A DNA stretch of 64,000 bases, from NCBI GenBank assembly GCA_037952775.1, contig JBANAY010000003.1:15438001-15502000 (forward strand). The letters are read 5' to 3'. Position 1 is the stretch's first letter. Every line of letters starts with the position of its first letter. The notes beneath the pieces were generated by a model. That model had not been told where the DNA came from. It ran no database searches and worked only from the letters and a program-made list of their open reading frames with translations. Positions 1,124 through 50,889 of the stretch are shown here, piece after piece. The position numbers were made by a program, and so were the translations under genes. Source of the stretch: Clonostachys chloroleuca. Taxonomy: Eukaryota > Ascomycota > Sordariomycetes > Hypocreales > Bionectriaceae.

Positions 1124-1296
1124 GGTTGTGGCGAGTGAGTATGGCGCAAACTGTGGCGCAAACCGTGGCGCAAACCGTGGCGCAGACGATTGAACGAAGG
1201 AGGGCGCGGAAGAAAGAACCTTTTCGTTCCTCAAAGGCACAGGAGACCGGTCCCCCTTTAGGGACCGCCAACGCCTTTTCGGAACGAGTTAAGAGC
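1124..1296 (+). repeat. dispersed hairpin repeat, copy A
   Basis: First of six related copies in the window. It starts with a run of 12-bp units of the type GTGGCGCAAACC and continues into a GGAAG..CCTTTTCGTTCC block. The core at 1225-1286 can fold: CGTTCCTCAAAGGC pairs with GCCTTTTCGGAACG, and an inner GGTCCC pairs with GGGACC around a CCTTTA loop. No coding capacity is evident. It could be a MITE, a SINE-like element or the end of a larger transposon. Confidence 0.7.
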
Positions 1297-2226
1297 CAAG
1301 TCGCCATTGTGTGGTGTGATGTTGGGAGAATTAGATTCGTTTATCATCGAATCATTTCCGTCTGGAGAGGTTGGGTCGACGGCACTCCTCGCAAGCAGCA
1401 GCTTCACTACTGCAGACCCGTTCCCTGCGCCGCATAACAGCGGCATCCAGCCATATTGACCCATAAGAGTCCTTGAAGTCTGGGTCGATAGCCCCCTTTC
1501 GAGAAGTAGCCGCATTACTACTTTCTTTCTGTTCGCCACGGCCCGTGACAATGGTGTCCAACCATATTTATCCCTGGAATTTGGGTCAACGGCGTCCTCC
1601 GCGAGTAGCAGTTTCACAACTTTCCTGTGGCCATTCTCTGCCGCAATTGACAACGGCGTCTGACCGTACTTGTCCTTAGAGTCCGGTGCCACGCCAGCCG
1701 TTGCAAGTATTAACTCCGCCACGGTACTATGTCCCTTCCGTGCCGCATGAAATAGAGGTGTTCGCCGGAAGTTATCCATAGAGTCGGGGTTAACATCCTC
1801 TCTAGCTAATAACAGCTTCACAATTCCTTCATGGCCGTTCGTTGCGGCTCGTGATAGTGGCGTGTGACGATTGTAGAGCCTTCCGTTGGAGTCTGCGTCA
1901 AGATTATCCTTTGCAAGTAATAACTCCACCAGTGAACTATGCCCGTTTTCCGCAGCTAGTAATAATGGAGTCCAACCATCGGCAGTCATACATTGGATAT
2001 CAGCCCCTTTCTCTAACGACATTCGAGCTGCGGCCACTTCCCCGTATTCTGAGCCCCATAAAAGTGCCGATCCTCCTGACTGCTTAACATTATGAAAATA
2101 GAGATAAGTACATAGCAAATGGTGAAGGCGATGATTCGATCGAGCTAAGCTATTAATATCTCTCTCTAATTCCATATTCTCTGCTATATAGAGAAGTAAT
2201 TCGTTTGGCAGACTAACAAACGACAT
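1258..2226 (-). CDS. F-box-like / ankyrin-repeat protein
   Basis: Encodes 322 aa from the ATG at 2226 (MSFVSLPNE). An in-frame ATG 63 bp upstream exists, but the F-box-like segment begins at the chosen start. Residues about 3-45 (LPNELLLYIAENM..LARSNHRLHHLL) resemble the F-box-like fold often found before ankyrin arrays in fungi. About seven ankyrin repeats follow, several with the TPL..AA..GH core. Family knowledge suggests a substrate adaptor for an SCF-type ubiquitin ligase or a protein-binding scaffold; this is inferred. The last dozen residues (LNSFRKGVGGP) and the stop lie inside the dispersed repeat copy A read on the opposite strand, so the original C-terminus was probably lost or replaced. 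No intron is needed. Confidence 0.65.
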   Translation of the reverse strand: MSFVSLPNELLLYIAENMELERDINSLARSNHRLHHLLCTYLYFHNVKQSGGSALLWGSEYGEVAAARMSLEKGADIQCMTADGWTPLLLAAENGHSSLVELLLAKDNLDADSNGRLYNRHTPLSRAATNGHEGIVKLLLAREDVNPDSMDNFRRTPLFHAARKGHSTVAELILATAGVAPDSKDKYGQTPLSIAAENGHRKVVKLLLAEDAVDPNSRDKYGWTPLSRAVANRKKVVMRLLLERGLSTQTSRTLMGQYGWMPLLCGAGNGSAVVKLLLARSAVDPTSPDGNDSMINESNSPNITPHNGDLALNSFRKGVGGP

Positions 2227-2914
2227 ATCTCTCTCAAAAACTGTAGGAAGATTATACAGAAGGCGGGGATGTCTGAGGGAAGGGCTCACCTTTAACTTAT
2301 CGTGAGCTGTCGGCTCCGAGCCCCCTATTGGAGCACTCGTGGCGGACTATGACATCAGTTTCACATGTCGGCAAGCTCCCGATGAATTATGACGTGAGTT
2401 GAATGACCCCTCCACAATCGATAAGCGCTCACTGAGGATGTGGGGGGAGTGGGTGACCATGGACAAGTATCGTCCTTAATCTCCCCAAGGGAAACTACAT
2501 ATATTTGCTTTTGTTTATATTAAACCGTTGGCGTTTACCGGCCCACCTCAGTACAGCATCATATATCCTACAATAGAATCCCAAACAAAAAGACATTCCG
2601 AGGCGGGTGAGTATATATCTTTATTCTCCGATAAAGCGCTAAATACCTAACGCTTCACGAGGCCAGACGCCTAATAACAGGGCAGAGCGTCTCCAAGAAA
2701 TTTATAGAAGGGCATTACATCGAGATCTCCTTGACCATCAGTTGGCACTTAGTCCAATTGCTCGATCATGACGGATATATTACGTATTAACGAGTATGGC
2801 TTCTCCATCCCGCTGGCCACCTGACCATTTGGGGCCTACTATGTAGCGTTAAATAGCAGAAATATCTCATTCTTGATTCTCTGAATTCAATGCCTCCCTT
2901 AGGTAAGAACAATC
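2227..2914. other. intergenic, no gene seen
   Basis: Between two divergently transcribed genes. AT-rich in part (2500-2560). It would hold both promoters; I see no distinct repeat, RNA gene or reading frame worth reporting. Confidence 0.4.
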
Positions 2915-6928: not shown

Positions 6929-7710
6929 GATGCTATTTATTCGAAATCGGTCCGTCTCAGTTAAGAACAAAAGTAAACTGCGCTGAGAAGAGAAAACGTT
7001 GTGTTAGACTGACTTTGCACTGATCTGAGTGAATACCTTACGTGAGGTGCGAGTCCTTACAAAGCCACTTTCTGCCAGCTCTTACGCCATCGCACTGAGA
7101 ACCCGTATCATTCGGTGCGCAATATATGCATGGCTGACGTGATGGCGGGGTTTTCTGAAGCGCCCTCGGGTAGGCTCACCGGCAGAAGGTGAAAGTTGTT
7201 GCTACGCCCGAGCCTAGAGATTGTAGCATTGCATATGCAAGCTGAGTGTGGTTTTGCAACCCACTGGTCACATTCGGACGGAGTTAGGATGCCGTATCCG
7301 AGGACCCCGCCTCAAGCAGCATAAGGAGCATATGTATTCTCTCATTTCGACGAATCGGTGCCAGCGGAGGGACTTCCTCTGCAGCTTACCGCATCTCACT
7401 GCGTCTAAGCGATGCCAGTAGTTTGCAAACCCCGCATTCAGCTTGGAGGCGCTGAGCTTACAATATGAGATATGACAATCGTTATGATGGTAATTGGACG
7501 AGAGAATCTCTACGTGGCCCTCGACAAGTGGTAGAGTGTAAGTATGCCGAATCTCCATGAAAAATACTAGCACATACTTAAAGAGGGCAGTGAACTCGGT
7601 ATTCATCGCCCCAGGGAACGCTCCGCACATTGCCACCTCAATAGTGTTAGTTGACCACGCCTTAATACCCATTTGGGGCTGCGACGAAAGCCCAACACAG
7701 ATTCTAATCC
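6929..7710. promoter_or_regulatory. divergent intergenic region between membrane gene and HET gene
   Basis: Holds both 5' regions of the head-to-head pair. A 134-codon open frame on the minus strand (7268-7672) lies across it but has no family resemblance and is treated as chance. No specific operator could be identified. Confidence 0.3.
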
Positions 7711-9744
7711 ATGTCTTCCATCCCGCAACGGCAGGGTGCTAGTTGGACAAGATGGGCATCGCCGAACGGCTTCCTGACGGGGGTCGCGAGCTGCTTATGC
7801 ATACCTCTCTCAAGGAGGAAGTCGAAACTATACGATCCATTGCCATCTAACACTATCATCGATGGGATCCCACAGGGATCAACGTATAACAATTCGGACA
7901 ACCTCGATAGAGACACTGTAAAAGTAAGAATCACTGTAAGAGCGAACCCCGACGCGAAAAATGGGGAGGTAGAGGCAGAGGCCACTCCCCTCCTAGTTAC
8001 CGTGCTGGACTCGGCAGCCCCCGAACCCACAGAGACTTCAAAGCTGGCCGGCGCGGCCGGACGTCAAACATCTGTCTCGGCAATCAGGAACAGCCAGGGT
8101 ATCATTCACCTCCAACTACCGAAAGACAATGGGCCAAAAAAGAAACTCCGGTTGATTCTTAGGATTGTTGCTCCCGAGACCAGACAAGAAAGGGAGGGTA
8201 CGGCTGACGTAGATATCGGCCAGCGTATCGAATATCCTGATGACATTACTGGTCCCCATGACATGGTGGGCGATAGGTGTGACACTGGCCACGAGATTGA
8301 GTCGAGAATCGTGGAAGAAATCGAGGAGAATGAGGATGCAGAGGGCTCGGTCGAAGTCGAACCGCCCGAGAACCAGAGCATGCACGCGCCGACCTGCGAT
8401 CCCAATAACAATAGCTGCCACCGCATCAAATGGAACAAGGAATCTTATCTCCATTGCAAAGCTCCGCCGGCGGTGAAAATCACAGACCATGAAGTACTGC
8501 CCGCGCAATTGCAATATGTCCCGGCAAGCCGCAGGACCATGGCCATCTCCCATGTGTGGAGCCACGGCCAAGGCGGTCGCCCGCATCTGGGAATCAACTC
8601 GTGTCTCTACCAGTGGTACCGGGCCATCGCGAAAAAGCAGTGGGACGCCCAGCGCAGCGTTGCACGCTGCGACTCCTTCTGGATCGACGCCGCTTGTATC
8701 CCGGACGAGTACGGCTTGCGGAGAGAGGCCATCGCCAATATCAACAATGTCTTTCGTAACGCGGCAGTGGTCTTGGTGATTGACAGAGGCATCATGGAAT
8801 GCGTTGCATCAAACAGTGAAGAGGACATGGTGCTGGTGCACGATGCGTGGCAAAACAGCGAGTGGAACAAAAGGGCGTGGACCCTGCTGGAGGGCATCCG
8901 CGGCACCGAGCAGCTGCACCTGCTCTGCGCCAAGGACCGGGTCATCTCGGTGAAAGACATGGGCCAGCGGATGAGGCGTCTAGAAAAGGTAAAGCTCATG
9001 GGTCGAGCGGAATCCGAACTCCTCGGCCTCTTTGAGAAGGCCCCGGCTGGTTACAGCTTTCCCTTCGAGAGCGGCGGAACCCTCCTCGCGAAACGAGCGG
9101 CTTCGAGACCAGGCGATATTGCCGTAATATGGAGCCTGCTTTGCCCCAAAGCATGCAGAAAAGAAATCTGCTACGATATGGCCGAACTACTCAGCAGAGT
9201 CGCTCAGGGTCCTGGCATTCGCACCTGCTTCCTCATGGCAACCATGCCACGCCTCGAGATGCCCGGGTTTCGCTGGGGTCCGACAGGCGCCAAAACCAGC
9301 CGGTTCAACTACAGATTTTCTAGCAAACAGTCGGACCACAGTGAACTCGCGAAATGCCGTGGCGACTCCCTAGGCTTGACTGCTGGATGGTTGGTCTGGG
9401 AATTGCAGTCCCAGTCAGACTGGCCTGCGTACCTCACATTGTCGGCCCTGGACTATGTTGAGCCGCTAGACTTGTCAAGCTGCTTGCGGAGCGGCCAGAG
9501 AGTTGCTCTCTTGCAGGCTGCGACCGGGCGAGGCCGGCTCTGTCATAACAGCCTCAGCTACATTACCTCTCATCGCCTGGTCGCAGTATGCTTTTGGAGT
9601 CGGGACCAGGCGAAGAATCAATATGAGTGGAAAGGTCTTTTTTATATTCATAAAGTAACTTCCGGAGTCGGGAGCGATTGGTACATAAGTGACCCGGGAG
9701 ACCTATCAGCCCACTTCACCTGGAAAGAGGTCACTCTGGTATGA
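7711..9744 (+). CDS. HET-domain protein (N-terminal extension type)
   Basis: Single-exon ORF of 677 aa. The HET (heterokaryon incompatibility) domain is recognisable from about residue 275: MAISHVWSHGQGG, then FWIDAACIP with a following REAIANINNVF, then VLVIDRGIM and SEWNKRAWTLLEGIRG. These are the conserved blocks of the family in the divergent form with an IDAACIP motif in place of VDAICINQ. Before it lies a 270-residue extension rich in Glu and Asp. HET proteins act as downstream or self-contained triggers of cell death after non-self fusion; the role here is inferred from the family. The C-terminal 250 residues have no identified domain. The divergent neighbour is a membrane protein. Confidence 0.8.
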   Translation: MSSIPQRQGASWTRWASPNGFLTGVASCLCIPLSRRKSKLYDPLPSNTIIDGIPQGSTYNNSDNLDRDTVKVRITVRANPDAKNGEVEAEATPLLVTVLDSAAPEPTETSKLAGAAGRQTSVSAIRNSQGIIHLQLPKDNGPKKKLRLILRIVAPETRQEREGTADVDIGQRIEYPDDITGPHDMVGDRCDTGHEIESRIVEEIEENEDAEGSVEVEPPENQSMHAPTCDPNNNSCHRIKWNKESYLHCKAPPAVKITDHEVLPAQLQYVPASRRTMAISHVWSHGQGGRPHLGINSCLYQWYRAIAKKQWDAQRSVARCDSFWIDAACIPDEYGLRREAIANINNVFRNAAVVLVIDRGIMECVASNSEEDMVLVHDAWQNSEWNKRAWTLLEGIRGTEQLHLLCAKDRVISVKDMGQRMRRLEKVKLMGRAESELLGLFEKAPAGYSFPFESGGTLLAKRAASRPGDIAVIWSLLCPKACRKEICYDMAELLSRVAQGPGIRTCFLMATMPRLEMPGFRWGPTGAKTSRFNYRFSSKQSDHSELAKCRGDSLGLTAGWLVWELQSQSDWPAYLTLSALDYVEPLDLSSCLRSGQRVALLQAATGRGRLCHNSLSYITSHRLVAVCFWSRDQAKNQYEWKGLFYIHKVTSGVGSDWYISDPGDLSAHFTWKEVTLV

Positions 9745-10395: not shown

Positions 10396-10887
10396 ATCCT
10401 CCAACGCAGGATCGAGGCTATTGATTTGATGGTATCACTTTGCGACAAGAGAGAGACGGTCAAACGCGATCGCGCCCAACCATGGGCTAACCCCGAACCG
10501 CCTATCAAGGCTGAATTGCCCGAGGCGTACGACAACAGTGAACTGAGCCCTGACCCATTTCCCCTGCTCATGCAGGCAACGCAGTGCCCTGATTGTATCG
10601 GCGATGAGCGACTATCCATTAACGAACGGATCTTTCCATACTACCGACCGACTGTTATGAACGATCACTTCGATGACCATCATCTGGTTAGACGAGAGCA
10701 GGCCGAGAAGAGTGGGCAGGCGATCAAGTGTGAGCATCCAAAGTGTACGATTATTGACTTTCGGCATTTAGACCACTTCATGAGTCATGTGCAGAAGGAA
10801 CATGGCATCATTCTACGGACAAAAGATCACGTGGAACAGAGGCGGCTGCGTAAGATGAGACGCCGTCAGATGATCAAGGCTTGTTGA
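10396..10887 (+). pseudogene. C-terminal relic of a DUF3435 (FluG/tyrosine-recombinase-like) gene
   Basis: The open frame from 10396 to 10887 starts mid-protein (ILQRRIEAIDLMVSLC) with a stop just before it and no ATG until 10429. It carries QCPDCIGDERLS followed by a C2H2-like pair, CEHPKCTIIDF..HFMSHVQKEHGI, the C-terminal signature I know from fungal DUF3435 proteins. The recombinase-like N-terminal part is absent, and the remnant abuts dispersed repeat copy C, so it is read as truncated. Related full-length DUF3435 proteins include the captain recombinases of Starship giant transposons, but many stand-alone relics exist too; this fragment alone does not prove a Starship. Confidence 0.6.
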
Positions 10888-11370: not shown

Positions 11371-14300
11371 TTATAAAGCCTGCAGCACCCGCATGACGGC
11401 CAACAATAGCCATAGCGGCGCGCCCTCGACGGCGGCGCCTTTGTCGAGCAGCAGCCGCACGACGGCCTCGTGACCCGACTCAGCGGCCCGCCATAGCGGC
11501 GTCCGACCATCGTTATCCTTCGAATCGATGGCGGCGCCCTTGTCGAGCAGTAGCCGCACGACGGCCTCGTGCCCGCCCTCGGCAGCCCACAAGAGCGGCG
11601 TCCGGCCATACTTATCCTTCGAATCGACGGCGGCGCCCTTATCGAGCAGCAGCCGCACGACGGCCTCATGCCCGCGATCGGCGGCCCACCATAGCGGCGT
11701 CCAGCCATTGTTATCCTTCGAATCGACGGCGGCGCCCTTGTCGAGCAGCAGCCGCACGACGGCCTCATGCCCGAGCTTGACGGCTCCCCATAGCGGCGTC
11801 CAGCCATTCTTATCCTTCGGGTCGACGGCAGCGCCCTTGTCGAGCAGCAGCCGTACGACGGCCTCGTGCCCGAGCTCGGCGGCCCGCCATAGCGGCGTCC
11901 GGCCATTGCTATCCTTCGAGTCGACGGCAGCGCCCTTGTCGAGTAGCAGCCGCACGATGGCCTCGTGCCCGAGCTCGGCGGTCCACCATAGCGGCGTCCA
12001 GCCATACTTATCCTTCGGGTCGACGGCGGCGCCCTTATCGAGCAGCAGCCGCACGACGGCCTCATGCCCGCGCCGGGCGGCCCACCATAGCGGCGTCCGG
12101 CCATTGTTATCCTTCGAGTCGACGGCGGCACCCTTATCGAGCAGCAGCCACACGACGGCCTCGTGCCCGCGCCCGGCGGCCCACCATAGCGGCGTCCAGC
12201 CATTGTTATCCTTCGAGTCGACGGCAGCGCCCTTGTCGAGCAGCAGCCGCACGACGGCCTCATGCCCGAGCTTGACGGCTCCCCATAGCGGCGTCCGGCC
12301 ATTGCTATCCTTCGGGTCGACGGCGGCGCCCTTGTCGAGCAGTAGCCGTACGACGGCCTCGTGTCCGGACTCAGCGGCCCGCCATAACGGCGTCCAGCTA
12401 TCGTTATCCTTCGACTCGGCGGCGGGGCCCTTTTCGAGTAGTAGCCGCATGACGGCCTCATGCCCGCGCTCGGCGGCCCACCATAACCATAGCAGCCCGC
12501 GCTGCGTCCGGCCATTGTTATCCTTCGAGTCGACGGCGGCGCCCTTGTCGAGCAGCAGCCGCACGACGGCCTCGTGACCCGACTCAGCGGCCCGCCATAG
12601 CGGCGTCCGGCCATCGTTATCCTTCGACTCGACGCCGGCGCCCTTATCGAGCAGCAGCCGCACGACAGCCTCATGCCCGCGATCGGCGGCCCACCATAGC
12701 AGCGTCCGGCCATTGTTATCCTTCGACTCGACGCCGGCGCCCTTATCGAGCAGCAGCCGCACGACGGCCTCATGCCCGCGATCGGCGGCCCACGATAGCG
12801 GCGTCCGGCCATTGTTATCCGTCCACTCGACGCCGGCGCCCTTGTCGAGCAGCAGCCGCACGACGGCCTCGTGCCCCGACTCGGCGGCCCGCCATAGCGG
12901 CGTCCGGCCATCGTTACCCGTCCACTCGGCGCCGGCGCCCTTATCAAGCAGCAGCCGCACGATGGCCTCATGCCCGCGATCGGCAGCCCACAAGAGCGGC
13001 GTCCAGCTATAGTTATCCTCCGAGTCGACGGCGGCGCCCTTGTCGAGCAGCAGCCGCACGACGGCCTCATGCCCGAGCTTGACGGCTCCCCATAACGGCG
13101 TCCGGCCATCGTTATCCCTCGAGTCGACGGCGGCGCCCTTGTCGAGTAGCAGCCGCACGACGGCCTCGTGACCCGACTCAGCGGCCCACCATAGCGGCGT
13201 CCGGCCATACTTATCCTTCGAATCGACGGCAGCGCCCTTGTCGAGCAGCAGCCGCACGACAGCCTCATGCCCGCGATCGGCGGCTCGCCATAGCGGCGTC
13301 GAGCCATTGTTATCCTTCGAATCGAGGCCATTCGGGGCCCGCCATAGCGGCGTCCGGCCATACTTATCCTTCGAATCGACGGCGGCGCCCTTATCGAGCA
13401 GCAGCCGCACGACGGCCTCATACCCGCGATCGGCAGCCCACCATAGCGGCGTCCAGCCATTGTTATCCTTCGAATCGACGGCGGCGCCCTTGTCGAGCAG
13501 CAGCCGCACAACAGCCTCATGCCCGCGATCGGCGGCCCACGATAGCGGCGTCCGGCCATTGTTATCCTTCGGGTCGACGGCAGCGCCCTTGTCGAGCAGC
13601 AGCCACACGACGGCCTCGTGCCCGCGCCCGGCGGCCCACCATAGCGGCGTCCAGCCATTGTTATCCATCGAGTCGACGGCGGCGCCCTTGTCGAGCAGTA
13701 GTCGCACGATGGCCTCGTGCCCCGACTCAACAGCCCGCCATAGCGGCGTCCAGCCATTGTTATTCTTCGAGTCGACGGCGGCGCCCTTGTCGAGCAGCAG
13801 CCGTACGACGGCCTCGTGACCCGACTCAGCGGCCCGCCATAGCGGCGTCCGGCCATCGTTATCCTTCGACTCGACGGCGGCGCCTTTGTCGAGCAGCAGC
13901 CGTACGAAGGCCTCATGCCTGCGATCGGCGGCCCACCATAGCGGCGTCCAGCCATTGTTATCTGTCCACTCGACGGCGGCGCCCTTGTCTTCGATAAGTA
14001 GATCATCCATCACCCTCAGCGCTTCGTCATCCGCCTCTATCCAAGGGCCGTGACTAGTGTTCACGCTTCTCAAAGCTGTTCCATAAACCTCCACGGCTTT
14101 TCGGAGATTCTTTCCTGCCTCTTTGTATCTTTCCAGTCCATTCAGTAACAGTCCGAAATCCCATAATCTAGTAGCTTTATCCAGATACTCTTGGCACTTG
14201 CACTCTGTCATTGGACACCTGGGCTTCTCCGAACTGCCAATGAGGCGTTCATAGTAACCTTCATCCTGCGACTTACCTTGAGATACATCCCAGTCCCAAA

Positions 14301-15703
14301 CAAGCAGTATATCATTTGGAAATGCTGTAATCGATCGTACAAGTTCCAGCAAGGGAACTGCAATCATTATAATGGCCGAATGACCGTTGCATGGCCTGAT
14401 GATTGAAGGTTTTGATGCTCCTTGCATAAAACAGACAATATCCCCTACCTGGATGGATTTCGCTGAGGCCGGGAAGGTGAAGTAAGAGCTCTGTTCCCCT
14501 TTTGTGTTAAAATACCTCTTCCAAATAATGGTCACGTTCTGTCTGTCATCACGAGTAACATCTCTTTCGACTGAGGATACTTCGCCAAGAATACGGCCTT
14601 TGCCTTTAATTACCGCCACCTGCTTGTCTTTCCAAGTGTCCACACACATCCGATCAGAGAGGGAGAAGTTGACAAATTTTTGAAAGACTTCTTTCCATGA
14701 AGACTCGTAGTTGGGCGATAACCCTGCTGTGCTAGGATTATCCGAGCTCATACCGAGCAAGGCATAAACCTTGTCATGAGGCTTAGTAGCCTTGCGGGTA
14801 TGGTACATATCCATCAGCTCACTTAGAGGGCGTATACCAAGAGAAAACCTGCCTAGCTGACTCATTTCGTCTTTTTCATATCTAGGCCGGAAGATTGCGC
14901 CCATTATCAGGTAAGCTACTGAGCGGATCAGACCCTGCAGGTCTGGGCAGGTTTCGTAGGACAGCTGCAATGCGCTTAAGCCTGAGCAGAACGCATATCC
15001 GTCGATCTCCGTAAGACCGCACTTGATCAGGACATGTCGAGCTGCGGCAACCTCCTGAAGGACCTGAATCGACTTTGTTAATAGCTTCTGCCCATATTGT
15101 TGATTGTCTGCCACTTACCCAGATGCGCTGAAACCATGGCCGCTTAAGCAGAGTGAGAATTGTTTGCTGGTGCGTTTCGTCGATTGCGGAATTCGTGTGC
15201 TGCTTTTCGGCAGCCTTGCGTATATCGATGAGCGCTTGATCGCCACCATCTACCCCCTCCCCAAGCCAAACAATTACGCGACTAGCTTTAGCATAGATCT
15301 TCGCCATAGATTGAACCTGCTGTCCCTTTTCATCATTGCCTCTTTGGTTGATGCAAATAGCATCTACCCATATGATACGTTCAACAAGGCGATCTCGAAG
15401 ATGTGACAGCGCCACGCGAAGGTTTGCTGTAATGAGTAAGCGAAGGTTGTTTCCAGTGGGAGGATAAGAACGAGGATTGGGGCCCTGCTCCACTTCGGCA
15501 GTGAGGTAATTGCCACCTTTGTCGCCCGACTGTATATAGATAGGCTGACGATCCTTCTCAGAGCCCCAAACGTACGATAAGGCCTCGTATAGATGTGTCC
15601 CTTCGCCCCGCAGAGAGTGCTCGAAGAGTTGGCACTGTATGGGTGCCTTGTTATCTTTGTGCGGCATCAGGCGAAGCAAGCGAATACTGCCCTGCTCCGA
15701 CAA
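11371..15703 (-). CDS. HET domain fused to a giant ankyrin-repeat array
   Basis: Two exons are clear: 15703-15119 and 15063-11371, separated by a 55-bp intron (donor GTAAGT, acceptor CAG) that falls after WFQRIW and restores VLQEVAAARH. This gives at least 1,425 aa. The HET blocks YEALSYVWG, IIWVDAICINQ and AKASRVIVWLGEG are in the first exon. After a linker of about 230 residues about 26 ankyrin repeats follow, nearly all 33 aa with the consensus DKGAAVDSKDNNG, TPLWWAA, GHEAVVRLLL. One repeat near 13320 is truncated and one near 12490 has a small insertion. The true N-terminus is unresolved: 15703 is a TTG and the frame stays open and protein-like to about 15889 without an ATG, so an upstream exon is likely. 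The array may recognise ligands and the HET domain may trigger cell death, by analogy with the family. Confidence 0.8.
11400..13990 (-). repeat. 99-bp tandem repeats coding for ankyrin units
   Basis: About 26 direct repeats of 99 bp, GC-rich and highly alike at the DNA level, lie within the second exon of the HET-ankyrin gene. Differences cluster at the codons after VDSKD and around the WWAADRG stretch. The homogeneity makes unequal crossing-over or gene conversion likely, and it also keeps alternative frames open over long distances. Confidence 0.9.
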
Positions 15704-16470
15704 TGGAGAGTAGCAGTATTCTGAGGAAGGTTCGTCTCTGGGACTGTCAGAGGCTAGATTCCTGAATTCGTCGGGGGTAAAGATACCTATCCTGACTAGT
15801 TCGGATGTTTGGCGGATGGTGGATGGTGGCTGGTATAGAGGATATCGAGGGGGCGTATTCCGCGGTCGGCTTTGCCTGATGACTTGTCCTCAAGGCTGCC
15901 CCCTCGAGGTCGTGCTCGGGTTCCGATAGCACAGACGCGGCAGTGGGAAGGCTTAGTCGGTGTCGGCAATTCTCATCGGGGGGATCTGCTTGAACTTCCC
16001 CAGGCCGGATTCTTCATCCGCAGAGTTATGATCGACCTCCCTCCCCTTCGGCTCACTGGACACAGTGTCTCTGTCCTCACCAATCTTGATATTTCTCTTC
16101 GACATTTGTAACTTCTCGATCGATCGCTTTCGGCGAGGTCTATCGACGCGCTCGATCCAGCGTTCGCTGTATTCTTTTTTGGGGACGCTAGCTAGTGGAG
16201 GAGGAGGATGACGAAGGGAAGGACTGTTTGAGCCGATTCTTTGCGATTGCAAACTGAAGACCAGACTTGTTAATGTACGCACGATGAAGAAACATAGCTA
16301 GGGATACTTACAAATCAGGCTCTCATGGTTGTGAATAAGGAGATAAAAAGAAAATGCATCGAGGTCGAAACACAGTCTGCATTCAACGCCAGGCTGATTC
16401 TGGCGGGGCAGCTGCCTAATCGCTGCCTTAGCCGTATCGGCCACGTCTGGGTGGGTCCATGGATTTTTGG
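15704..16470. other. region upstream of HET-ankyrin gene
   Basis: Probably contains the missing first exon of the HET-ankyrin gene: the frame is open from 15703 back to 15889. A 109-codon minus-strand frame at 15953-16282, basic in the middle and acidic at the end, could be a separate small gene or part of that exon; I cannot decide between them. Confidence 0.3.
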
Positions 16471-16478
16471 TTTATAGT

Positions 16479-32564: not shown

Positions 32565-32922
32565 ACAACGCTCAAATACAGGTGTATACTGTTTAGTATT
32601 ATCTATTGATTTCTTTTGAATCTATGCCTTTAGCATTTTACAGCGTCTTACCTTGCGCCGCCGCATCTGCTCAACTTAATCTGATGTCCGTAGTGTGATG
32701 CCATGTGCAGAAGGCATATTATTCCCAAAGCTATATAGATGCGTAAATGAAATATCTCTACATTTGGAACCCTCAATCTTAGATTCAAATTAAGTCAGGC
32801 CGAAATCAAGGCATTTGCCACAGCAAGGGAAAACATTGGCGGATCTGCTTCAACGCAAGTGTAATTATGTGTTTCATATATATGCAATAATTTCAATGCC
32901 CCTCAGTATAAATGTAATGAGC
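32565..32922. other. intergenic, nothing recognised
   Basis: 3' flank of the membrane-protein gene; AT-rich, no reading frame of note. Confidence 0.3.
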
Positions 32923-34614: not shown

Positions 34615-35220
34615 TTAGTTGTCGTTAGGTTCGAAGTCAATAACTGTAGGATTGCCAGACTCGCCTTGGCCCAAATCGATCCCAGCAGGGGTGCTTGGGG
34701 GAGTTTGGGGAGGCTGCTGCTGGTCTCTCTCTTCTCCTCCTGGGAGGTTTGTGGCATTGTTGTTCCTTTCAATTTCTCCTGGCTGCCCAGGGATGTCTTC
34801 CATAGAAGTGGTATTCTCCATCTCAAATGGATAATCGGAGTGTGCCAATCTACCCACGTCTATATGGCCTGAGGAATATTGAGGACGAGGAGAGGAATTG
34901 TCGGTGCCGTTGGTTTCCTTGTCATTGTTCTCCGTATCCTGAGATAGTTTTATAATTAGCTTGAGCCACCTAGGATGCATACAATCATACTTCGAACGAA
35001 TGAATTGTTGTTGCGCCGCCTCTAGACTCTCATCAGTCAAGAGTTGACTTACAGGAATTCTGTTGTCATCATGAGCTGGAGAGGATCCTGAAATGGGCCA
35101 TGGTGCTATGTCGGGCTGCCCTGGGATGTCTTCCGTAGACGTTGTTCTATCCATCTCAGCTTGTGGCGGCTGGGATGGCGGCTGGGGAGGAGGCTCTTCT
35201 CTATTGAGTCGCCCAGGCAT
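34615..35220 (-). CDS. low-complexity hypothetical protein, 201 aa
   Basis: ATG-started ORF, Pro/Gln/Glu-rich at both ends. It contains an internal duplication: TTSTEDIPGQP near residue 26 and TTSMEDIPGQP near residue 138. The middle (ESLEAAQQQFIRSKYDCMHPRWLKLIIKLSQD) is helical. No domain recognised. It may be an intrinsically disordered accessory protein; coding status is supported by length and codon use only. Confidence 0.45.
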   Translation of the reverse strand: MPGRLNREEPPPQPPSQPPQAEMDRTTSTEDIPGQPDIAPWPISGSSPAHDDNRIPVSQLLTDESLEAAQQQFIRSKYDCMHPRWLKLIIKLSQDTENNDKETNGTDNSSPRPQYSSGHIDVGRLAHSDYPFEMENTTSMEDIPGQPGEIERNNNATNLPGGEERDQQQPPQTPPSTPAGIDLGQGESGNPTVIDFEPNDN

Positions 35221-35700
35221 ATTGAGTAAGTATAATATTGAGTAAGTCTAGTATCGACGAGGTTTGAACAATGCCGAGGTCGCGTAGAATGGCTGTGACT
35301 ACTTCTGACTACCGCTGTTTAGTAACCAGCAACTTGAACACGGAAAGGTATTCGCAGAGGGAACAAGGGCATACACTTACGAATCTAAACTCAACAATCC
35401 AGTCCTTGTCATCAATGTTCTTTGATCAGGTCTGCGCGGCTCGTCGTAAGGTCACTTGGGTGTATCAAGATCGTTGTAGGACAGTCAGGATGGCTTGTAA
35501 GATCTGAGCTGAAACAGCACAATGGGAGAGGAATATGTCAATGTTCAATGGTGCAGACAACTTCCGAGGAAGATGGCCAATTGTGATCAATTTCCCTGAC
35601 CTGGGGACTTTTTGGGCAGTCAAAGGGGAATTGTTGCTCTTCTTATATGTCACGACCCGCTCGTCTAGTACTCAATCGTCCGAGGCAAATCTGCCCATGC
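35221..35700. other. intergenic, nothing recognised
   Basis: Short frames only. Confidence 0.3.
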
Positions 35701-36002
35701 ATAGGATGGCTGCAACCTCGTTTCTTCCAGTTTGAGCTGCATCTTGATATGGACAAGATCGAACGTGTTTCGTCAGGGGTAGTGGTTCCACGAACGAACT
35801 TCTTCTGACGTGGTCAGCGTTGCGCTAAGGCAACTCACGGCCGCGGCCACCCTTCACTCGATTGCATGCATGTTGGCTGTATCCCTGTCCTCGAAGTCAA
35901 GGTACGAGTAAGCTTCCTGCAGTGTGTTACCTCGGAAAGTATCACAAGTCTCCCACTCATGCCAAGCCATTATTCGGCCCCGAATATCCCATCTCAAGTT
36001 AG
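35701..36002 (+). repeat. duplicated segment, order A-B-C
   Basis: Three blocks that recur 0.4-0.7 kb downstream: A (35701-35800, begins AGGATGGCTGCAACCTCG), B (35806-35878, TCTGACGTGGTCAG to GCATGCATGTTGG) and C (35872-36002, TCGAAGTCAAGGTACGAGTA to CCCCGAATATC). Confidence 0.8.
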
Positions 36003-39772: not shown

Positions 39773-39968
39773 TAAGCCCTTTTGCTCGTGTCCACGAGCC
39801 GAAGCTTTTCCGAGCTTCTGTATGATGTTGACGGCCCTAAGATTATATAAGTTCTTCTGCTGTCCACTCTCCCTAAGCATATGGTCTGCAACAATCTTTT
39901 TTTACTCTAAGCTCCTCTTGGAGTGTTCCACGACAACATTGGCATGTTTTGGCCGTTCCAGGTTCAAA

Positions 39969-40892
39969 ATGTTTCAGGAGCTGCCTCCGTGCATAACTAA
40001 GCTCAGACTCATATCTAGGGGCGCAACTGGGTGGGTTTACCAAGTCGATGAGGAGATAGCCCTAAAATATACAAGGAAGGACCGCCTGAAGCAATTTCAG
40101 AACGAGAACAACAACTATAGCCTCTTCGAGCGTCATGGGTTTCCTCCATACTTGACCCAGAGCTTTCTCCGGCTTCCAGGTATCAACTTCTTACAGCTTA
40201 TGCCTAGTGGCTCCTTGGATAAGCGTATCTACAGCAATCAACGACGTGACTACAAAAATATGAAGTGTCTCGAGGTACTACGATTGGAGCCGACACAGAA
40301 GATTGAACAATGGGCTATGGAGTTATCTAGGGCTATTGCTTGGCTAGAGTCTTTGGGCTTGGTCCACGGAGACTTGAAGCCCGCCAATATTCTACTCGAT
40401 CCTAAAGATCACCTAAAGTTAGTTGATTTTGACTCCATTGCTGAAATTGGATCCAAGCACCTCGGTAATTCGCCACCTTGGTCACGACAACTTGGCCCCG
40501 AAGCTGGCCGACACCAGGGAACATACGGGCTATATGGAGCAACGAGTGAGCAATTTACTTTTGGTTCGATCTTATATACTCTTACCCGCGGCTTCGAGCC
40601 CTACGAGGATAAACGGAAAGCCGCCGTTGCACTTTTAAGAAGGATGGAATTCCCAGAATTATCTGGTACGCAGTTAGACAGAGTTATCAATCGTTGCTGG
40701 AGAGGAGAGTATAAGTCGCTCGTGGACCTAGAAAAGGAGATGGCCAGTTTGGAAGGTGCCACTGCGGCACCACTAGCAACGCTGTTGGATGATGAGTATA
40801 TGGCAAAGATGCGACAGAGGTGTGCTGAACTCCTTGACAGTGAGCTGGCCGGCATAGGCTTTGAGGGGTCGGAGGAGAAGCTAGAGACCTAG
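39969..40892 (+). CDS. accessory protein kinase-like protein
   Basis: 307 aa from the ATG at 39969 (MFQELPPC); the frame is open further upstream but that part is not kinase-like. Motifs in order: glycine loop SRGATGWVYQV, lysine in IALKYTRK, a Glu in FQNENNNYSLF, catalytic loop LVHGDLKPANILL (about residue 130) with HGD instead of HRD, metal-binding LVDFDSIAEIG with DFD instead of DFG, and FTFGSILYTLTRGFEPYED. This type of short kinase is common in accessory regions of ascomycetes, often close to HET and NLR genes. The key Lys, Asp and Asp residues are present, so activity is possible. Confidence 0.75.
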   Translation: MFQELPPCITKLRLISRGATGWVYQVDEEIALKYTRKDRLKQFQNENNNYSLFERHGFPPYLTQSFLRLPGINFLQLMPSGSLDKRIYSNQRRDYKNMKCLEVLRLEPTQKIEQWAMELSRAIAWLESLGLVHGDLKPANILLDPKDHLKLVDFDSIAEIGSKHLGNSPPWSRQLGPEAGRHQGTYGLYGATSEQFTFGSILYTLTRGFEPYEDKRKAAVALLRRMEFPELSGTQLDRVINRCWRGEYKSLVDLEKEMASLEGATAAPLATLLDDEYMAKMRQRCAELLDSELAGIGFEGSEEKLET

Positions 40893-42876: not shown

Positions 42877-43227
42877 TTAACCGCAGGCATTGTCGCTATT
42901 GTCTTGATGGGGCTCTGGCCCAAGAGGCGTGTACGGGACAGGAGATTCTTAGCAATGGTGTTAAGGTGACGGACGTGTGCATCGGGGATCAGTGAGCAGT
43001 GCTTACTAAGAGTATGGAAAATAGCTTTTCCTTTCCGAGTCAGCTATGCTTGATGGGAATGCTCAGCGTATATGACCCACCAATCTGTGTCGCCCATTCG
43101 CAGCTTTGTTTTTCCGACTCGTCATCAGGGTTTCTCCGAGTGCCCATCCAGTTGATCTCAAATACCTACGCGACACACAGTCTCGACCACTTCCGGCGCA
43201 AATGCGACAATAATGAGAGCAGTCGCC

Positions 43228-45622
43228 ATGACGGATCAAAACTGCTCAAAGATCATTGAAGAACATCCTATTGGAAATGGCCTCAACACCTTCCGTAATT
43301 CCTTCAATTCGATCTGTGAAGACGGGAATATCTCGCCAGATCCAGGTGCAATAGAGAGCATCTTGGTCAAGAAGGTATGTGTAGCGTAGCAGTGCTGATT
43401 TCGATGCTTGGCTGGTCTGACTGTGAGAAGAGCTACAGAATCTTATTCTCGTCCTTCTCTCCACATTACAACTCCATCCAGCCGCCCGACTGCTCCGTTC
43501 AAGTGGAAATGGCAAAAACCTCTTCGACGATTTGTTGCGGCTCAATTCCGCTGTCAACTCCGGCGAGTTCGATCTTGATCGCATTAAGCCACTCGTAAGG
43601 GCAGCCATCACCGACATTCCCGACGATACAGTTATCTGGAATCATCTCTACGAAGCTGTCACAGAATCCACCCCGCCTCCCCGACCAATACCTTCATCGA
43701 TCCAACAAACGCCATTAAGTCAGAACACGAGCGGCCTGGTAAACTCATCAGAGTTCCGCCAGGATGTGGACCCGATCCTTAAGTTGGAGCTCGGGCCGCT
43801 CTATACTGGACTTCCTAATTTCCACAAAGTTTTCTTTGGAGACGTGTCGGACCTCGACAGCGTCTCTGAGACCGTTTTTCGTCGGTGTACCGAAGGTGAT
43901 AATCCACTATTTACTGACGGTTGGACTGGATGGCCAGCAACTGCCAAAGAGAGCGACGTGTTGGCTTGGTTTAGTGGCATAATCCCGAAGCTGGAAGCCT
44001 TCGCAAGCGACCGCATTCCGACTCCAACGACTGGGCGAAAACTATTGGCGCAGCCCAGGACTCCCTTGATTGGCTCCACAGGCAAACGCAGTATGGATAT
44101 CGGCTTTGTTAATAGTAATATCATATACAACCCTGACTCTGAAGATTCAAGATATCGTTGGTCACACATCCTCGTTGCCGGCGAACTGAAAAGCAACCCC
44201 AAGGCGGACACAGCGTCGATTGCATGGATTGACCTTGCAAGGTACGTGAGAGAGGTTTTCGGCGCCCAGGAGACCCGTCGCTTCGTACTGGGCTTTACAC
44301 TCTGCGGGTCTTTGATGAGGGTATGGGAGTTCGACCGGCTTGGGGGGATCGCCTCCGAACAATTTGACATTAATAAGGAGGACGGTGGGCTACAGTTTGT
44401 GACGACCATCCTGGGATTTCTGTGGATGAACGAGAAGATGCTTGGGTTCGACCCTACCATTAGAGCATCCGGCGACGTGAAATATATCAACATTAAACGA
44501 AACGACAGAATAGAGCGTCTTATCATTGATGAGGTCATGAGACGAGCACCTTGCATTGCCGGTCGGGCGACAGTCTGTTGGAGAGCACATCGAGAGGAGG
44601 ATCCGCAGACGCCGCTTGTTATCAAGGACTCATGGCAATACCCAGATCGGGACGAAGAAGGCGAACTCCTCCGAGAGGCGACCGAGAAAGGCGTCGCTAA
44701 TATTGCCCGATATTACCACCACGAGACTGTTCGCGTACAAGGCATCAATGATGACATTCAAAGCATTCGAAAGGGTTTGGACGTCATGAAAGCTGCTAAT
44801 TATCGACTGGGACGTGCGACGCCGCAGTCAAGTGCGAATGCGTCTATTTCTCGCAAAGAGCGAAGTAGCAGCGCTGGTGTGAAGCGACCATCGAGTGATA
44901 CCGATGCCACCCTACCGCCGATTAAGCGATCCCGTCCCGTGTCTCCAGCAAACGCAAGCATAAACCGGGTGCACCGGCGAGTTATTCTTGGCGACTATGG
45001 AAAGCCAATCTACAAGGCAGGCTCCCCCATGGCGCTACTTTCTGCGCTAGAAGGCTGCGTCGAAGGACATGAGTTGTTGTACAGAGCTGGTCTTCTTCAC
45101 AGGGATATCTCTATCAACAACCTCATGGTGAATGAGGACGACAGGAACCCTTCCTGGCGAGCATTTTTGATTGACCTAGACCTCGCTGTTAGAGAGCAAC
45201 GGGAAGGCGCCTCAGGAGCAAAAGGGAAGACGGGTACGAGAGCTTTCATGGCCATTGGTGCACTTCTAGGGGAGCAGCATTCTTTCATGCATGACCTAGA
45301 GTCGTTCTTCTGGGTTATATTCTGGATATGTATCCACTATAACGGACCGGATCAGAGCAGGGTGGTCCAAGAATTCGATAAATGGAACACTGTGAAGATG
45401 AAAGAGTTGGCAAAGCTGAAATTGGGTACTGTGGCGAAAGAGGCGATTTTCATGGAGACAATCACGGATAATTTTACGGCTTATTACGCGCCTATGGTCC
45501 CACTATTAAGCAAGCTTCGGAAGACCGTCTTCCCTCGGGGCCAGCCCTGGGAACGGGAAGATGAGAGACTCTACTCTCAATTTAGAGAGATTCTCCGCAG
45601 CGGGCGGGAAGACTTGAAGTAA
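43228..45622 (+). CDS. FunK1-type fungal protein kinase
   Basis: Exons 43228-43374 and 43439-45622 with a 64-bp intron (donor GTATGT, acceptor CAG), 776 aa. The N-terminal half (DVLAWFSGIIPKLEAFA, HILVAGELKSNP, WIDLARYVREVFGAQETRRF) is the FunK1 lead-in region. The kinase core has VHRRVILGDYGKPIYKA, catalytic loop LLHRDISINNLMVNED near residue 600, metal site FLIDLDLAV, GTRAFMAIGALLG and HDLESFFWVIFWIC, all characteristic of the FunK1 family expanded in basidiomycetes and some ascomycetes. A Ser/Pro-rich insert with KRPSSDTDATLPPIKRSRP separates the two parts. A truncated relative is at 31985-32564. Confidence 0.88.
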
Positions 45623-46713: not shown

Positions 46714-49700
46714 ATGTCAGACCCCCTGGTCTACACCGTGGGCTGGATCTGCGCTATCGCCACCGAGTCTGTCGCAGCTCGAGCCTTCCTCGACGAAGAG
46801 CACGACGGACCTAGCCACGTCGCTCAGCACGACAACAACAGCTATGTTCTCGGCAAAATTGGCAGCCACAACATCGTCATCGCCGTCCTGCCGGATGGAG
46901 CGTACGGCACTACCTCGGCGGCGGTGGTAGCGCAGGGTCTCATTCACAGCTTTCCAAACGTGCGCATCGGGCTGATGGTGGGCATTGGGGGCGGCGCACC
47001 CAGCTCGAAGCATGATATACGTCTCGGCGATGTGGTTGTCAGCAGCCCTAATGGTGGCAAGGGCGGCGTATTCCAGTATGACTTTGGCAAGACCATTCAG
47101 AACGTCGCGTTCCAAGAAACGGGGTTCTTGGCCCAATCTCCGATGGTATTACGGACGGCTGTGAGCTCCCTCAAGAGCACCTACGAGCTACGGGGTCACC
47201 AGCTTGCAGACGAGGTGAAACGGGCCTTGAACCGCATCAAACGGCGAAAGAAGTACGCCCGACCTGCTCCAGCACGCGACAAATTGTACAAGCCCGACGC
47301 TGTTCACCCGATAGCAGCCGACAGTTGCGACGATGCATGCGATGCAGCTTACCTGGTGGCTCGTGGCGACCGAGACGAGGAGGATGACGACCCCGCCATA
47401 CACTACGGTCTGATCGCCAGCGGAAACCAGCTGATGAAAGATGCACGAATCAGGGACAAGCTGGCAATGGACAAAGGAGTCCTCTGCTTCGAGATGGAGG
47501 CGGCCGGCCTGATGAACCACTTTCCGTGTCTGATAATCCGTGGCATATGCGACTATTCCGACTCGCACAAAAACAAGGAGTGGCAGGGGTTCTCTGCCAT
47601 GATGGCGGCAGCATACGCGCGGGACCTTCTGCGGCAGATCCCGCCGAACATGGTCGAGGCGGAAAGACCGATTTCCGAGGCCCTCCATGCTAGTCAGTTT
47701 GCAAGTCCTTTGTATTCGCTCTATCTAACTCGGCGTAGTTGAACACAAAATCGACAGGCTGCAGCAGACCACAGCGGCAACGAGCGCTGACCGACGTACC
47801 GATAAGATCGAGCGATGGCTTCGCCCCCCGATCCGTCCACAAACGCCAACCATGCGAGGAAGCTTCGCCATGAGGGGACGGGCGCGTGGCTTTTGGAACA
47901 CTCAGTCTTCCAGGATTGGTACTCAGGGTCGCGTCGACATTTATGGCTGCACGGGCTCGCGGGATGTGGCAAGACTGTTCTTAGTGCAACTGTGCTGGAT
48001 CATCTCGCAAAGGGAAGCGGCCGCCTTATCCTCAGCTTCTTCTTCGACTTTGGTGACAAGGCAAAGAAAACTGTGGACGGCATGCTGCGATCGCTTGTCT
48101 TCCAGCTTTATCGAGGGGGACTGATTCTGCGCGTGTCCTCGACGCCTCATTCCAAGCACATCAAGATGGCCGCGACCAGCCTTCGACAAAAGCGCTCTCA
48201 GATGCTTTGTTCACGATGCTCGCAGCTCAAGAGAAGGTTGTTATTGTTCTGGACGCCTTAGACGAGTCGACATCGAGGAATGAGCTTCTCCGCTGGATCA
48301 AGGACACAGTGTCCAGGCAAGGCCTTAACCACGTCCAAATCGTTTGTACCAGTCGGCCTGAAAGCGAATTCCAGTGTGATATGACCTCCTTAATGGGCGC
48401 GGAGAATAGCTTGGCACTCGATAGGCAATCCGTCAACGCCGATATCCGATCGTACGTTGCAGCACAGCTTTCAGAGCGGCGTGATTTTCGGGACAAGCGC
48501 TTGTCCCCAGAAATCCGCGACAAGATACAGAGAAAGGTCGGAGACGGGGCCGACGGCATGTAAGACAGCGCTACTTCAATCGATGTGTCGATGCCTTTCT
48601 GACGGCGTGTCTAGGTTCAGGTGGGCATTCTGTCAATTGGACAGCCTGGCTCGGTGTCGTCACGAGGCGGCGATTGTGAACGCTCTCGCATCTTTGCCGC
48701 CGGACCTAGCAGTCACATACCGGCGTATGATTGAAAGCATACCGACAGAACTCAAGACCGACGCGATGCGGCTCCTGCAATTTCTAGTGCATATGGAGCG
48801 ACCACTCACGCTGGCGGAGGCTAAGGAAGTGATAGCCACACAGATCGAAAACGAGCCGCGAGGGTTTAACGTCAAGCGTCGACTATATCGCGACGCCGAC
48901 TTGTTGGACTACTGCCCTAGCTTAGTGACAGTTGTTCACGCCACCGATGATGAACTACATCTTGCTCACTTTTCCGTCAAGGAGTACCTGCTCAGGGAGA
49001 ACAAGTTCGACATTATAAGTGCAAGTATTTCTATTACGAGCACGTGCCTGACGTATCTTAGGGATATCAAGGGCAGCTATGGGCGGATCAGGCAGGATTT
49101 TCCGATGGCAAGATGTGCGGCCGAAATCTGGACACGTCATGCTGCCTTGGCTCAAGCGTCGAAAGATGTAGCTCGAGCGATTGTCAGTTTCCTCGAAAAT
49201 AAAGAGACTTTCCAGCGATGGGCTCGTTTGTATCAACCTGACAGATATTGGGTCGCTGATCCAGGCCTGCCAAAAGGTTCTCAGCTTTATTATGTCTGCT
49301 TCGATGGGCTCGTAGAGCCTGCGCGAGGTCTTATCGCCCAGGGAGCTGATGTCGACGCGCGGGGTGGCGAGTACGGTAACGCTCTCCAAGCCGCCTCATC
49401 GGAAGGTCATCAAGAGATTGTGGTACTACTGTTGAACGAGGGGGCCGATGTGAATGCGCAGGGCGGCCAGTATGGCAACGCTCTCCAAGCCGCCTCATAC
49501 AGAGGCCATCAAGAGATTGTCGGACTCCTCTTGGATAGGGGGGCCAATGTGAATACGCAGGGTGGCGTCTATGGCAACGCTCTCCAAGGCGCCTCATATG
49601 AAGGTCATCAAGAGATTGTGGGACTGCTGTTGAACGAGGGGGCCAATGTGAATGCGCAGGGCGGCTACTATGGCAACGCTCTCTATGCCGCCTCATACAG

Positions 49701-50889
49701 AGGCCATCAAGAGATTGTCGGACTCCTCTTGGATAGGGGGGCCAATGTGAATACGCAGGGCGGCGAGTATGGCAACGCTCTCTATGCCGCCTCATCGGAA
49801 GGTCATCAAGAAATTGTGGTACTACTATTAAACAAGGGGGCCGATGTAAATGCGCAGGGCGGCCACTTTGGCTACGCTCTCTATGCCGCCTCATACAGAG
49901 GCTATCAAGAGATTGTGGTACTACTATTGAACGAGGGGGCCAATATGAATGCGCAGGGTGGCGCCTATGGCAACGCTCTCCAAGGCGCCTCATTGGGAGG
50001 CCATCAAGAGATCGCGGCACTGCTGTTGAACGAGGAGGCCAATGTGAATGCGCAGTACGGCATCTATGGCAACGCTCTCCAAGCCGCCTCATTTAGAGGT
50101 CATCAAGAGATTGTCGAACTCCTACTAAACAAGGGGGCCGATATGAATGCGCAGGGTGGCGTCTATGGCAACGCTCTCTATGCCGCCTCATTCAGAGGTC
50201 ATCAAGAGATTGTGGTACTGCTGCTGAACAAGGGGGCCAATGTGAATGCGCAGGGTGGCGTCTATGGCAACGCTCTCCAAGCCGCCTCATATGAAGGTCA
50301 TCAAGAGATTGTGGGACTGCTGTTGAACGAGGGGGCCAATGTGAATGCGCAGGGCGGCCGCTATGGCAACGCTCTCCAAGCCGCCTCATCGGAAGGCCAT
50401 CAAGAGATTGTGGTACTACTATTGAACGAGGGGGCCAATGTGAATGCGCAGGGCGGCGAGTATGGCAACGCTCTCTATGCCGCCTCATTTAGAGGTCGTC
50501 AAGAGATTGTGGTACTACTATTAAGCAAGGGGGCCGATGTGGATATGCAGGGTGGCTACTATAGCAACGCTCTCCAAGCCGCCTCATCGCAAGGTCATCA
50601 AGAGATTGTCGAACTCCTCTTGAACAAGGGGGCCGATATGAATGCGCAGGGCGGCGAGTATGGCAACGCTCTCCAAGGCGCCTCATTTGGAGGTCATCAA
50701 GAGATTGTGGGACTACTGTTGGACAAGGGGGCCGATGTGAATGCGCAGGGCGGCCGCTTTGGCAACGCTCTACAAGCCGCCTCATATAAAGGCCATCAAG
50801 AGATTGTGGGACTGCTCCAAAAAAAATTAAAAATTGGCGTGATTACATCGTCGAAGCAGCCGGTTCTCGGACTCCGAGCAACCCAGTGA
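46714..50889 (+). CDS. fungal NLR 2: phosphorylase-like, NACHT, 15 ankyrin repeats (two frameshifts)
   Basis: Exons 46714-47692, 47739-48559 and 48615-50889 with introns of 46 and 55 bp. Domains: phosphorylase-like ([54 protein letters not shown]); linker [20 protein letters not shown] with P-loop [10 protein letters not shown] and Walker [11 protein letters not shown]; winged-helix-like region to about 49300; then 15 ankyrin repeats of 33 aa ([30 protein letters not shown]). As read, exon 2 is not continuous: the frame shifts by one base in a run of six C near 47827 and again in a run of five G near 48118; one base is missing at each relative to the protein expected. Everything else is clean, so these are either young lesions or sequencing errors in homopolymers. 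Confidence 0.82.
49345..50815 (+). repeat. 99-bp ankyrin-coding tandem repeats in NLR 2
   Basis: Fifteen direct repeats without spacers, very similar in DNA sequence. Variation is concentrated in the residue before YGNAL and in the codons around GHQEIV, the surface-exposed positions of the repeat. Confidence 0.9.

Follow-up and report, generated by a model that had tools for sequence, protein, structure and literature searches.

A recurrent block of a FunK1 kinase and a PNP-NACHT-ankyrin receptor in the densest recognition-gene island of Clonostachys chloroleuca

Introduction

Which genes of a crowded recognition island belong together, and which are only neighbours? The question is raised by a stretch of 64,000 nucleotides from Clonostachys chloroleuca, a soil fungus of the Hypocreales and a relative of C. 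rosea, a species used in biocontrol. This stretch, referred to here as the window, spans positions 15438001-15502000 of contig C3 in a genome of 59.4 Mb assembled into four contigs. Within about 50 kb it holds two NOD-like receptors (NLRs) of the PNP_UDP-NACHT-ankyrin type, designated NLR-A and NLR-B, together with HET-domain genes, a FunK1 kinase gene and a short protein kinase gene. An earlier note, made from the sequence of the window, read this mixture as a sign of a modular recognition locus under birth-and-death evolution. We find that FunK1 and NLR-B form a block that recurs elsewhere in the genome, and that, in the copies read, the other recognition genes of the window have not moved with it. 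Coordinates without a contig name are window positions; loci on contigs C1, C3 and C4 are named by position, the short forms being in Mb.

Results

One unit of the window recurs in the genome: a FunK1 gene beside a PNP-NACHT-ankyrin NLR, followed in two places by an NLR with PNP, NB-ARC and TPR domains. The segment at 43.6-49.3 kb matches C3:27470701-27476450 across both genes at 95% identity. Further copies of NLR-B lie at C1:5140221 (95%), C4:3894378 (93%), C3:27037071 (93%) and C3:13038125 (92%), and copies of FunK1 lie at C4:3891565 (85%, inverted), C3:13811941 (85%, beside a relic of NLR-B), C4:8523413 (83%) and C1:5022188-5024240 (93-95%), with additional fragments. For about 28 kb the block on C1 runs collinear with that on C4, mostly at 90-92% identity, the exception being the slot occupied by FunK1; in each of them the PNP-NB-ARC-TPR receptor follows some 14 kb downstream. 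C3:14.08 Mb has a third copy, degraded, that retains a FunK1 relic and the TPR receptor. The copy in the window ends at about 52.1 kb, before the TPR receptor, and a transposase of the Mutator-like element (MULE) type follows 5.8 kb farther on. In the loci read, the block is not accompanied by matching copies of the short kinase, the HET genes or NLR-A; for NLR-A there are only weak matches to other PNP and ankyrin parts.

The 42 FunK1 profile rows of the genome reduce to about 20 loci, with eight weak rows covering only the last part of the profile set aside. Four of the 20 have a PNP domain no more than 3.5 kb away, against a null mean of 0.11 and a maximum of 2 in 2000 draws; within 7 kb the count is five, against 0.19 at random. 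Among the six near-full NLR-B copies, the window included, four have FunK1 within 3.5 kb. The adjacency exists because the block has been copied, as the DNA comparison shows; it exceeds chance, with the reservation that the pairs share common descent. Two FunK1 relics, at C1:5065759-5066810 and C4:8758830-8759881, display a nearly equal pattern of profile rows and scores, and look like the products of a recent duplication.

The kinase next to the receptor is not always the same. Five loci have FunK1 beside NLR-B or its relic, and these loci, which were chosen for holding FunK1 or NLR-B and not blindly, carry three FunK1 lineages in both orientations. Type I is found in the window and at C3:27.47, in the orientation of NLR-B. 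Type II, whose protein is 80% identical to type I, is found on C4 and at C3:13.81 in the opposite orientation, and type III, with a protein identity of 28%, occupies C1 in the orientation of NLR-B. When C1 is compared with C4, identity in the flanks is 80-96%, and the slot itself matches over only 104 bases at 69%. Block A, on the far side of the slot, is present at full length in the window, C1 and C4. The loci C3:27.47 and C3:13.81 are weaker cases of the slot because their far flank consists only of a repeat of 0.4-0.6 kb (72-83% identity) that is found elsewhere too.

Synonymous divergence (dS) between FunK1 types I and II is 0.53-0.55, while NLR-B of the window differs from that of C4 by a dS of 0.10 in the PNP part, 0.13 in the NACHT part and 0.23 in exon 3. 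Therefore either types I and II predate the copying of the receptor, or gene conversion homogenises NLR-B. The type II protein found here is 90% identical to a protein of Metarhizium robertsii (P0005) and 99.7% identical to another record of C. chloroleuca, which implies that FunK1 types are common to different genera.

Two observations from other fungi touch on these lineages. The Metarhizium protein is nearer to type II than type I of the same genome is, a relation that could reflect transfer or very old types. Conoideocrella luteorostrata has a type III FunK1 (QQS21_003823, P0179) and an NLR-B relative (QQS21_003847, P0295) separated by 24 locus numbers, both listed on contigs of 173,816 bases; it is the sole such species noticed among the matches listed.

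The FunK1 gene of the window is open after splicing of exon 1 (43228-43374) to exon 2 (from about 43433); exon 1 carries a 2-base insertion relative to the other four copies, and a nearby acceptor preserves the frame. The kinase residues K, E, HRD, N and DLD are invariant in all 38 aligned FunK1 sequences, which belong to two lineages, and the C-terminal half of a type II record (P0002) takes a kinase fold in the predicted model. NLR-B shows the P-loop GLAGCGKT in translation and 15 near-identical ankyrin repeats of 33 residues, most varied at positions 10, 20, 21, 28, 32 and 33. Its NPHP3_N domain is split over two frames by a frameshift in a G run of the NACHT exon near 48114, one base shorter than in three of the four compared copies; C3:27.47 shares the short run. 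This one-base frameshift may be an assembly error. The junction between PNP and NACHT requires a 120-nt intron: a C. rosea record reads through it in frame, but all five copies here do not.

Ratios of non-synonymous to synonymous divergence (dN/dS) fall between 0.26 and 0.47 in 27 of 30 comparisons of NLR-B copies (0.57, 0.61 and 0.83 in the others), and between 0.10 and 0.29 in all ten pairs of FunK1 copies, values that indicate purifying selection on both genes. Some of the frameshifts seen in the copies may be consensus errors. Across the 295 kb fetched, C/G runs of exactly seven number 6 against 75 of length six, scarcer than the trend of run lengths predicts, which gives a hint of homopolymer undercalling. 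A likely consensus error in an NLR gene is described in PMC12222747.

The copies lie in six arcs that together make up 5.07 Mb, or 8.5% of the genome, and that were drawn after the places of FunK1, NLR-B and DUF3435 had been seen. These arcs hold 17 of 20 FunK1 loci, 16 of 25 DUF3435 domains, 16 of 44 PNP domains and 27 of at least 145 NPHP3_N positions; HET is not enriched in them (11 of at least 150). Because the arcs were drawn after the fact, the FunK1 and DUF3435 counts are partly circular; it is their contrast with HET that is informative. A DUF3435 domain lies within 80 kb of 12 of 20 FunK1 loci (random mean 1.3 of 20), 19 of 145 NPHP3_N positions and 13 of 44 PNP domains. DUF3435 genes also flank the island. 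One of them, 97.5% identical over 3.4 kb, stands to the left of both the window (in the stretch from C3:15428001) and the C4 block (from C4:3829001). Similarity beyond these two genes ends after about 6 kb, with about 46 kb of the C4 interval unread and the left part of the window compared with the genome over 1-16 kb.

By its listed HET, NLR and FunK1 domains the island is the densest 64-kb place in the genome. The scan covered 14,777 overlapping windows of 64 kb and 150 HET, 145 NPHP3_N and 20 FunK1 positions, pieces of one gene being merged into single positions and the HET and NPHP3_N totals being lower bounds. Our window holds six positions, two of each domain; the weak HET match at 7708 is missing from the listed rows and so stands outside these six. 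The genome maximum, seven positions, is reached at C3:15452001-15516000, shifted to the right of the window, and the next separate place holds four. Random placements (n=200) gave a mean maximum of 3.9 and a highest value of 6. The dense island of NLR, HET, ankyrin and kinase genes described in the earlier note is thus a real feature of the genome, its named genes being found by Pfam.

The gene content can be read from Table 1. Both PNP_UDP-NACHT-ankyrin receptors, the FunK1 kinase and the short kinase claimed for the window are confirmed by Pfam. The fusion of HET to ankyrins holds as well: a canonical 55-nt intron (15118-15064) joins the HET part to the ankyrin frame, and the only stop is terminal. 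NLR-A is open across a 157-nt intron (1124 codons). The suspected relic of another NLR corresponds to a PNP fragment of about 58 residues, and that of another FunK1 gene is recognised by Pfam. Two claims stand in part. Three HET proteins had been counted, of which two are strong and the third barely passes the cut-off of 22.5 bits; and the gene taken for an F-box/ankyrin gene has its ankyrin frame, but only a weak F-box match (E 0.015, 15.5 bits, cut-off 24.3).

Table 1. Features of the window in order of position
Feature	Position	Strand	Evidence and remarks
Ankyrin gene, weak F-box	1258..2346	-	Pfam
Weak HET protein	7708..9744	+	23.4 bits; 83% DNA paralogue C3:29003987-29008287
DUF3435 recombinase-type C-terminal relic with zinc finger (probable)	10396..10887	+	Sequence similarity
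HET-ankyrin fusion	11371..15889	-	HET 15889-14882, 112.5 bits; 1488 codons
NLR-A	17454..20982	-	PNP_UDP - NACHT - winged helix - ankyrin; Pfam; outside duplicated block
PNP fragment (relic of further NLR)	21707..21880	+	tblastn, 36-39% identity
HET protein	27855..30065	-	89.4 bits; 736-codon frame
FunK1 relic	31989..32460	-	Pfam; nearest type II; 94% DNA identity to C4 and C3:13.81 copies
Block A	32913..35971		Common to C4 (93%) and C1 (89%); far side of FunK1 slot
Short protein kinase	39966..40889	+	53.4 bits; HGDLKPAN, DFD
FunK1 kinase gene, type I	43228..45622	+	PF17667, 465.6 bits, full-length profile; 778 aa
NLR-B	46714..50889	+	PNP_UDP - NACHT - winged helix - ankyrin; Pfam, exon model
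Downstream block remnants	51444..52142		Matches to C1 and C4 blocks
MULE-type transposase	57942..60581	-	PF10551, 93.8 bits

Several smaller features of the window have relatives elsewhere. The segment 1239-2745, which holds the ankyrin gene, is 92-95% identical at four other places and has further partial copies; the adjoining segment 2743-3812 recurs at five further places (94-97%), and at C1:5068580 and C4:8761641 both flanks adjoin without 1296-2744, as if the ankyrin gene were a separable cassette. The short kinase has two paralogues at 62-63%, both outside the six arcs; a paralogue at C3:19561874-19562755 has a HET domain (C3:19565578) about 3 kb away, a possible separate kinase-HET neighbourhood. 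The open reading frame at 10396-10887 is similar to nine places in the genome, six of them at or beside a listed DUF3435 domain and three not, and its zinc finger is weak (E 0.031). Neither of the two larger reading frames of block A has a Pfam match.

Base composition also varies along the window. The ankyrin part of the HET-ankyrin gene (12001-14000) has a GC content of 0.66-0.69, against about 0.5 around it; a GC skew of 0.22 and an AT skew of 0.24 are seen at 24-25 kb, and the AT skew flips to -0.27 at 25-26 kb. The segment 37160-39080 contains a pyrimidine-rich and a purine-rich simple repeat (as read on the plus strand), one at each side of a small region whose reading frame 39133-38414 has no Pfam match.

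To the right of the window the island continues with a NACHT_N-NACHT protein at C3:15.509 Mb, DUF3435 genes at 15.513 and a HET gene at 15.525; farther on there are FunK1 relics at 15.532 and 15.560 Mb and more NLRs at 15.597 and 15.632. At C3:15558418-15560031, 56 kb right of the window, lies an inverted second copy of block A (96%) with an adjoining FunK1 relic.

Discussion

The island is composed of two layers. A block of FunK1 and a PNP-NACHT-ankyrin receptor spreads by duplication among DUF3435-rich arcs and decays copy by copy; the HET, HET-ankyrin, NLR-A and short kinase genes stay behind when the block is copied, in the copies read. The birth-and-death evolution proposed earlier is borne out by six near-full NLR-B copies with fragments, and by FunK1 copies and relics, on three contigs. 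The proposal of a modular recognition locus survives for the FunK1 and PNP-NACHT-ankyrin unit, which recurs, but not for the whole mixture as one module, given that HET is not enriched in the arcs and that both paralogues of the short kinase lie outside them.

The best explanation, which we consider about evenly balanced between right and wrong, is a two-layer hotspot in which the copied block, set beside neighbours that do not travel, joins a receptor with its kinase partner. The near-identical ankyrin repeats would sense a target, the NACHT domain would oligomerise, and the PNP domain would act as a nucleosidase effector that depletes nucleotides. The neighbouring FunK1 would be the partner of the receptor—a watched substrate, an adaptor or a responder—and exchange of the kinase while the receptor stays would yield new kinase-receptor combinations. 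The PNP motif region aligns to solved nucleosidases (best E 0.0014). PNP_UDP is an immune ATP nucleosidase in bacteria, and microbial two-gene clusters are functional units, according to PMC10197012. A working kinase-receptor module is a tentative proposal, which we rate slightly below plain hitch-hiking of the two genes. The more specific reading, that the receptor keeps a slot for FunK1 kinases exchanged between old lineages and that FunK1 serves as a substrate, adaptor or effector of the NLR, is a doubtful one.

A number of observations weigh against such a bond. Two of the six near-full NLR-B copies (C3:27.04 and C3:13.04) have no FunK1 nearby. Pairing among copies is expected from common descent, and the loci were picked for FunK1 or NLR-B. 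No fusion of FunK1 to an NLR occurs among the 120 NLR and 240 FunK1 matches listed. Among the pairs read, none has both genes plainly intact: C3:27.47 carries frameshifts in both, C4 has a frameshifted FunK1 and one surplus base towards the end of the NACHT exon of NLR-B, C1 has a stop in the PNP part of NLR-B with G-to-A changes, C3:13.81 has lost most of NLR-B, and NLR-B of the window is frameshifted. A dS of only 0.018 separates the PNP exon of C1 from that of C3:27.47, a sign of gene conversion, which may make NLR-B look younger than FunK1. In addition, five FunK1 loci fall within about 155 kb of C1, and the presence of FunK1 beside NLR-B there is therefore not very improbable. This local abundance fits a different account, to which we give a real chance that nonetheless falls short of even: FunK1 and NLR-B, without any functional bond, would merely be carried along together by duplications in arcs rich in repeats and DUF3435, and the exchanged kinases would stem from recombination among many local FunK1 copies. 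The concentration of FunK1, DUF3435 and PNP in 8.5% of the genome, partly circular as it is, favours hitch-hiking, as do the recurrence of other window repeats within the same arcs and the decay of most copies; the three lineages and two orientations in the slot of five non-blindly picked loci, and the purifying selection on both genes, speak for a partnership of kinase and receptor instead. A single allorecognition locus, in which all HET, NLR and kinase genes across the 50 kb would work as one, is very improbable: the island is indeed the densest place in the genome, but HET is not enriched in the block-carrying arcs, and in the loci read no copies matching the short kinase, the HET genes or NLR-A stand next to the block.

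Two further alternatives concern the role of the kinase and the vehicle of the block. FunK1 might itself act as effector: a conserved D..GExK pattern ahead of the kinase part recalls PD-(D/E)XK nucleases, and the protein would combine a nuclease-like domain with a kinase in the manner of REase-kinase toxins, to be checked or released by the NLR. Residues G299, E300 and K302 are present in 38 of 38 sequences and D271 in 36 of 38, across two FunK1 lineages; strands and helices surround the motif in the predicted model of the type II record P0002; PDDEXK_12 is joined to FunK1 in one Fusarium protein (P0216), and a PDDEXK_12 protein at C4:8.528 Mb has a FunK1 gene about 3 kb away; and REase-kinase effectors are described in PMC5289972. 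The ExK of one PDDEXK_12 protein aligns to the motif with P 0.011, but the hhalign probability is very low (3.8%), model confidence is low around the motif (mean pLDDT, the predicted local distance difference test, 65) without a significant structural match, and seven sequences have no Pfam nuclease match up to E 10, so that we regard this role as improbable. The block may also have been the cargo of Starships, giant transposons with a DUF3435 captain, and the flanks of the island would then hold their remains, a possible origin that we rate as rather unlikely. It would accord with the closeness of FunK1 to DUF3435, above the NPHP3_N, PNP and random rates, with the near-identical DUF3435 gene to the left of the window and of the C4 block, and with the probable DUF3435 relic inside the window and the DUF3435 genes to its right; PMC12134995 reports one NLR carried by a Starship of Gaeumannomyces. 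The same paper describes DUF3435 genes as more usually solo, the sequence shared around that DUF3435 pair reaches no farther than about 6 kb in the intervals compared, and there is no DUF3435 within 200 kb of the C1 block among the matches listed.

Many filamentous fungi have an expanded set of FunK1 kinases, a family with no known role, and their physical and evolutionary link to an NLR makes immunity and cell death a direct place to look for one. As the densest recognition-gene place by listed domains, the island is a good site for watching how fungal immune genes are born and lost, and its genus includes commercial biocontrol strains. Three kinase lineages in the slot of a single receptor would offer a natural experiment on whether fungal NLRs use exchangeable kinase partners.

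The components of the block are each known; the FunK1-NLR pairing and the exchanged kinase slot were not found described, in a literature search on FunK1 and NLRs in fungi that still leaves an earlier mention possible. In domain order and near-identical repeats NLR-B resembles other fungal PNP_UDP-NACHT-ankyrin receptors, the 120 relatives listed being 60-91% identical over the 240 residues scored and coming from Clonostachys, Fusarium, Metarhizium, Penicillium, Aspergillus and others; it is unlike them in that FunK1 accompanies most of its near-full copies and that the pair has spread as a block. As a small unit of a sensor and a neighbouring gene, the block recalls the fungal two-gene NLR-effector clusters nwd2/het-S and pnt1/hellp and the gasdermin-protease pairs (PMC12881547 and PMC10197012). 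Here, unlike in those systems, the neighbour is a FunK1 kinase, and the block has multiplied with an exchanged partner. The kinase of the window matches the FunK1 profile over its full length, and the family expands elsewhere too, in non-syntenic regions as a lineage-specific expansion in Paracoccidioides (PMC3203195) and on lineage-specific chromosomes of Fusarium oxysporum (PMC6001611). The link to an NLR gene sets the present case apart from the FunK1 family as described. The repeats with few variable positions and the copies with changes like those of repeat-induced point mutation (RIP) resemble the het-d and het-e NLRs of Podospora, whose repeats and RIP-hit copies are treated in PMC1805685 and PMC12222747. 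NLR-B differs from these in having ankyrin instead of WD40 repeats. The effector of het-d and het-e is HET, against PNP in NLR-B. In plants, ZAR1 is a conserved NLR that works with exchangeable receptor-like cytoplasmic kinases. By analogy, a conserved fungal NLR with exchangeable kinases would work alike, and FunK1, if the partnership is true, would be its substrate, adaptor or effector under a logic similar to that of the ZAR1 kinases.

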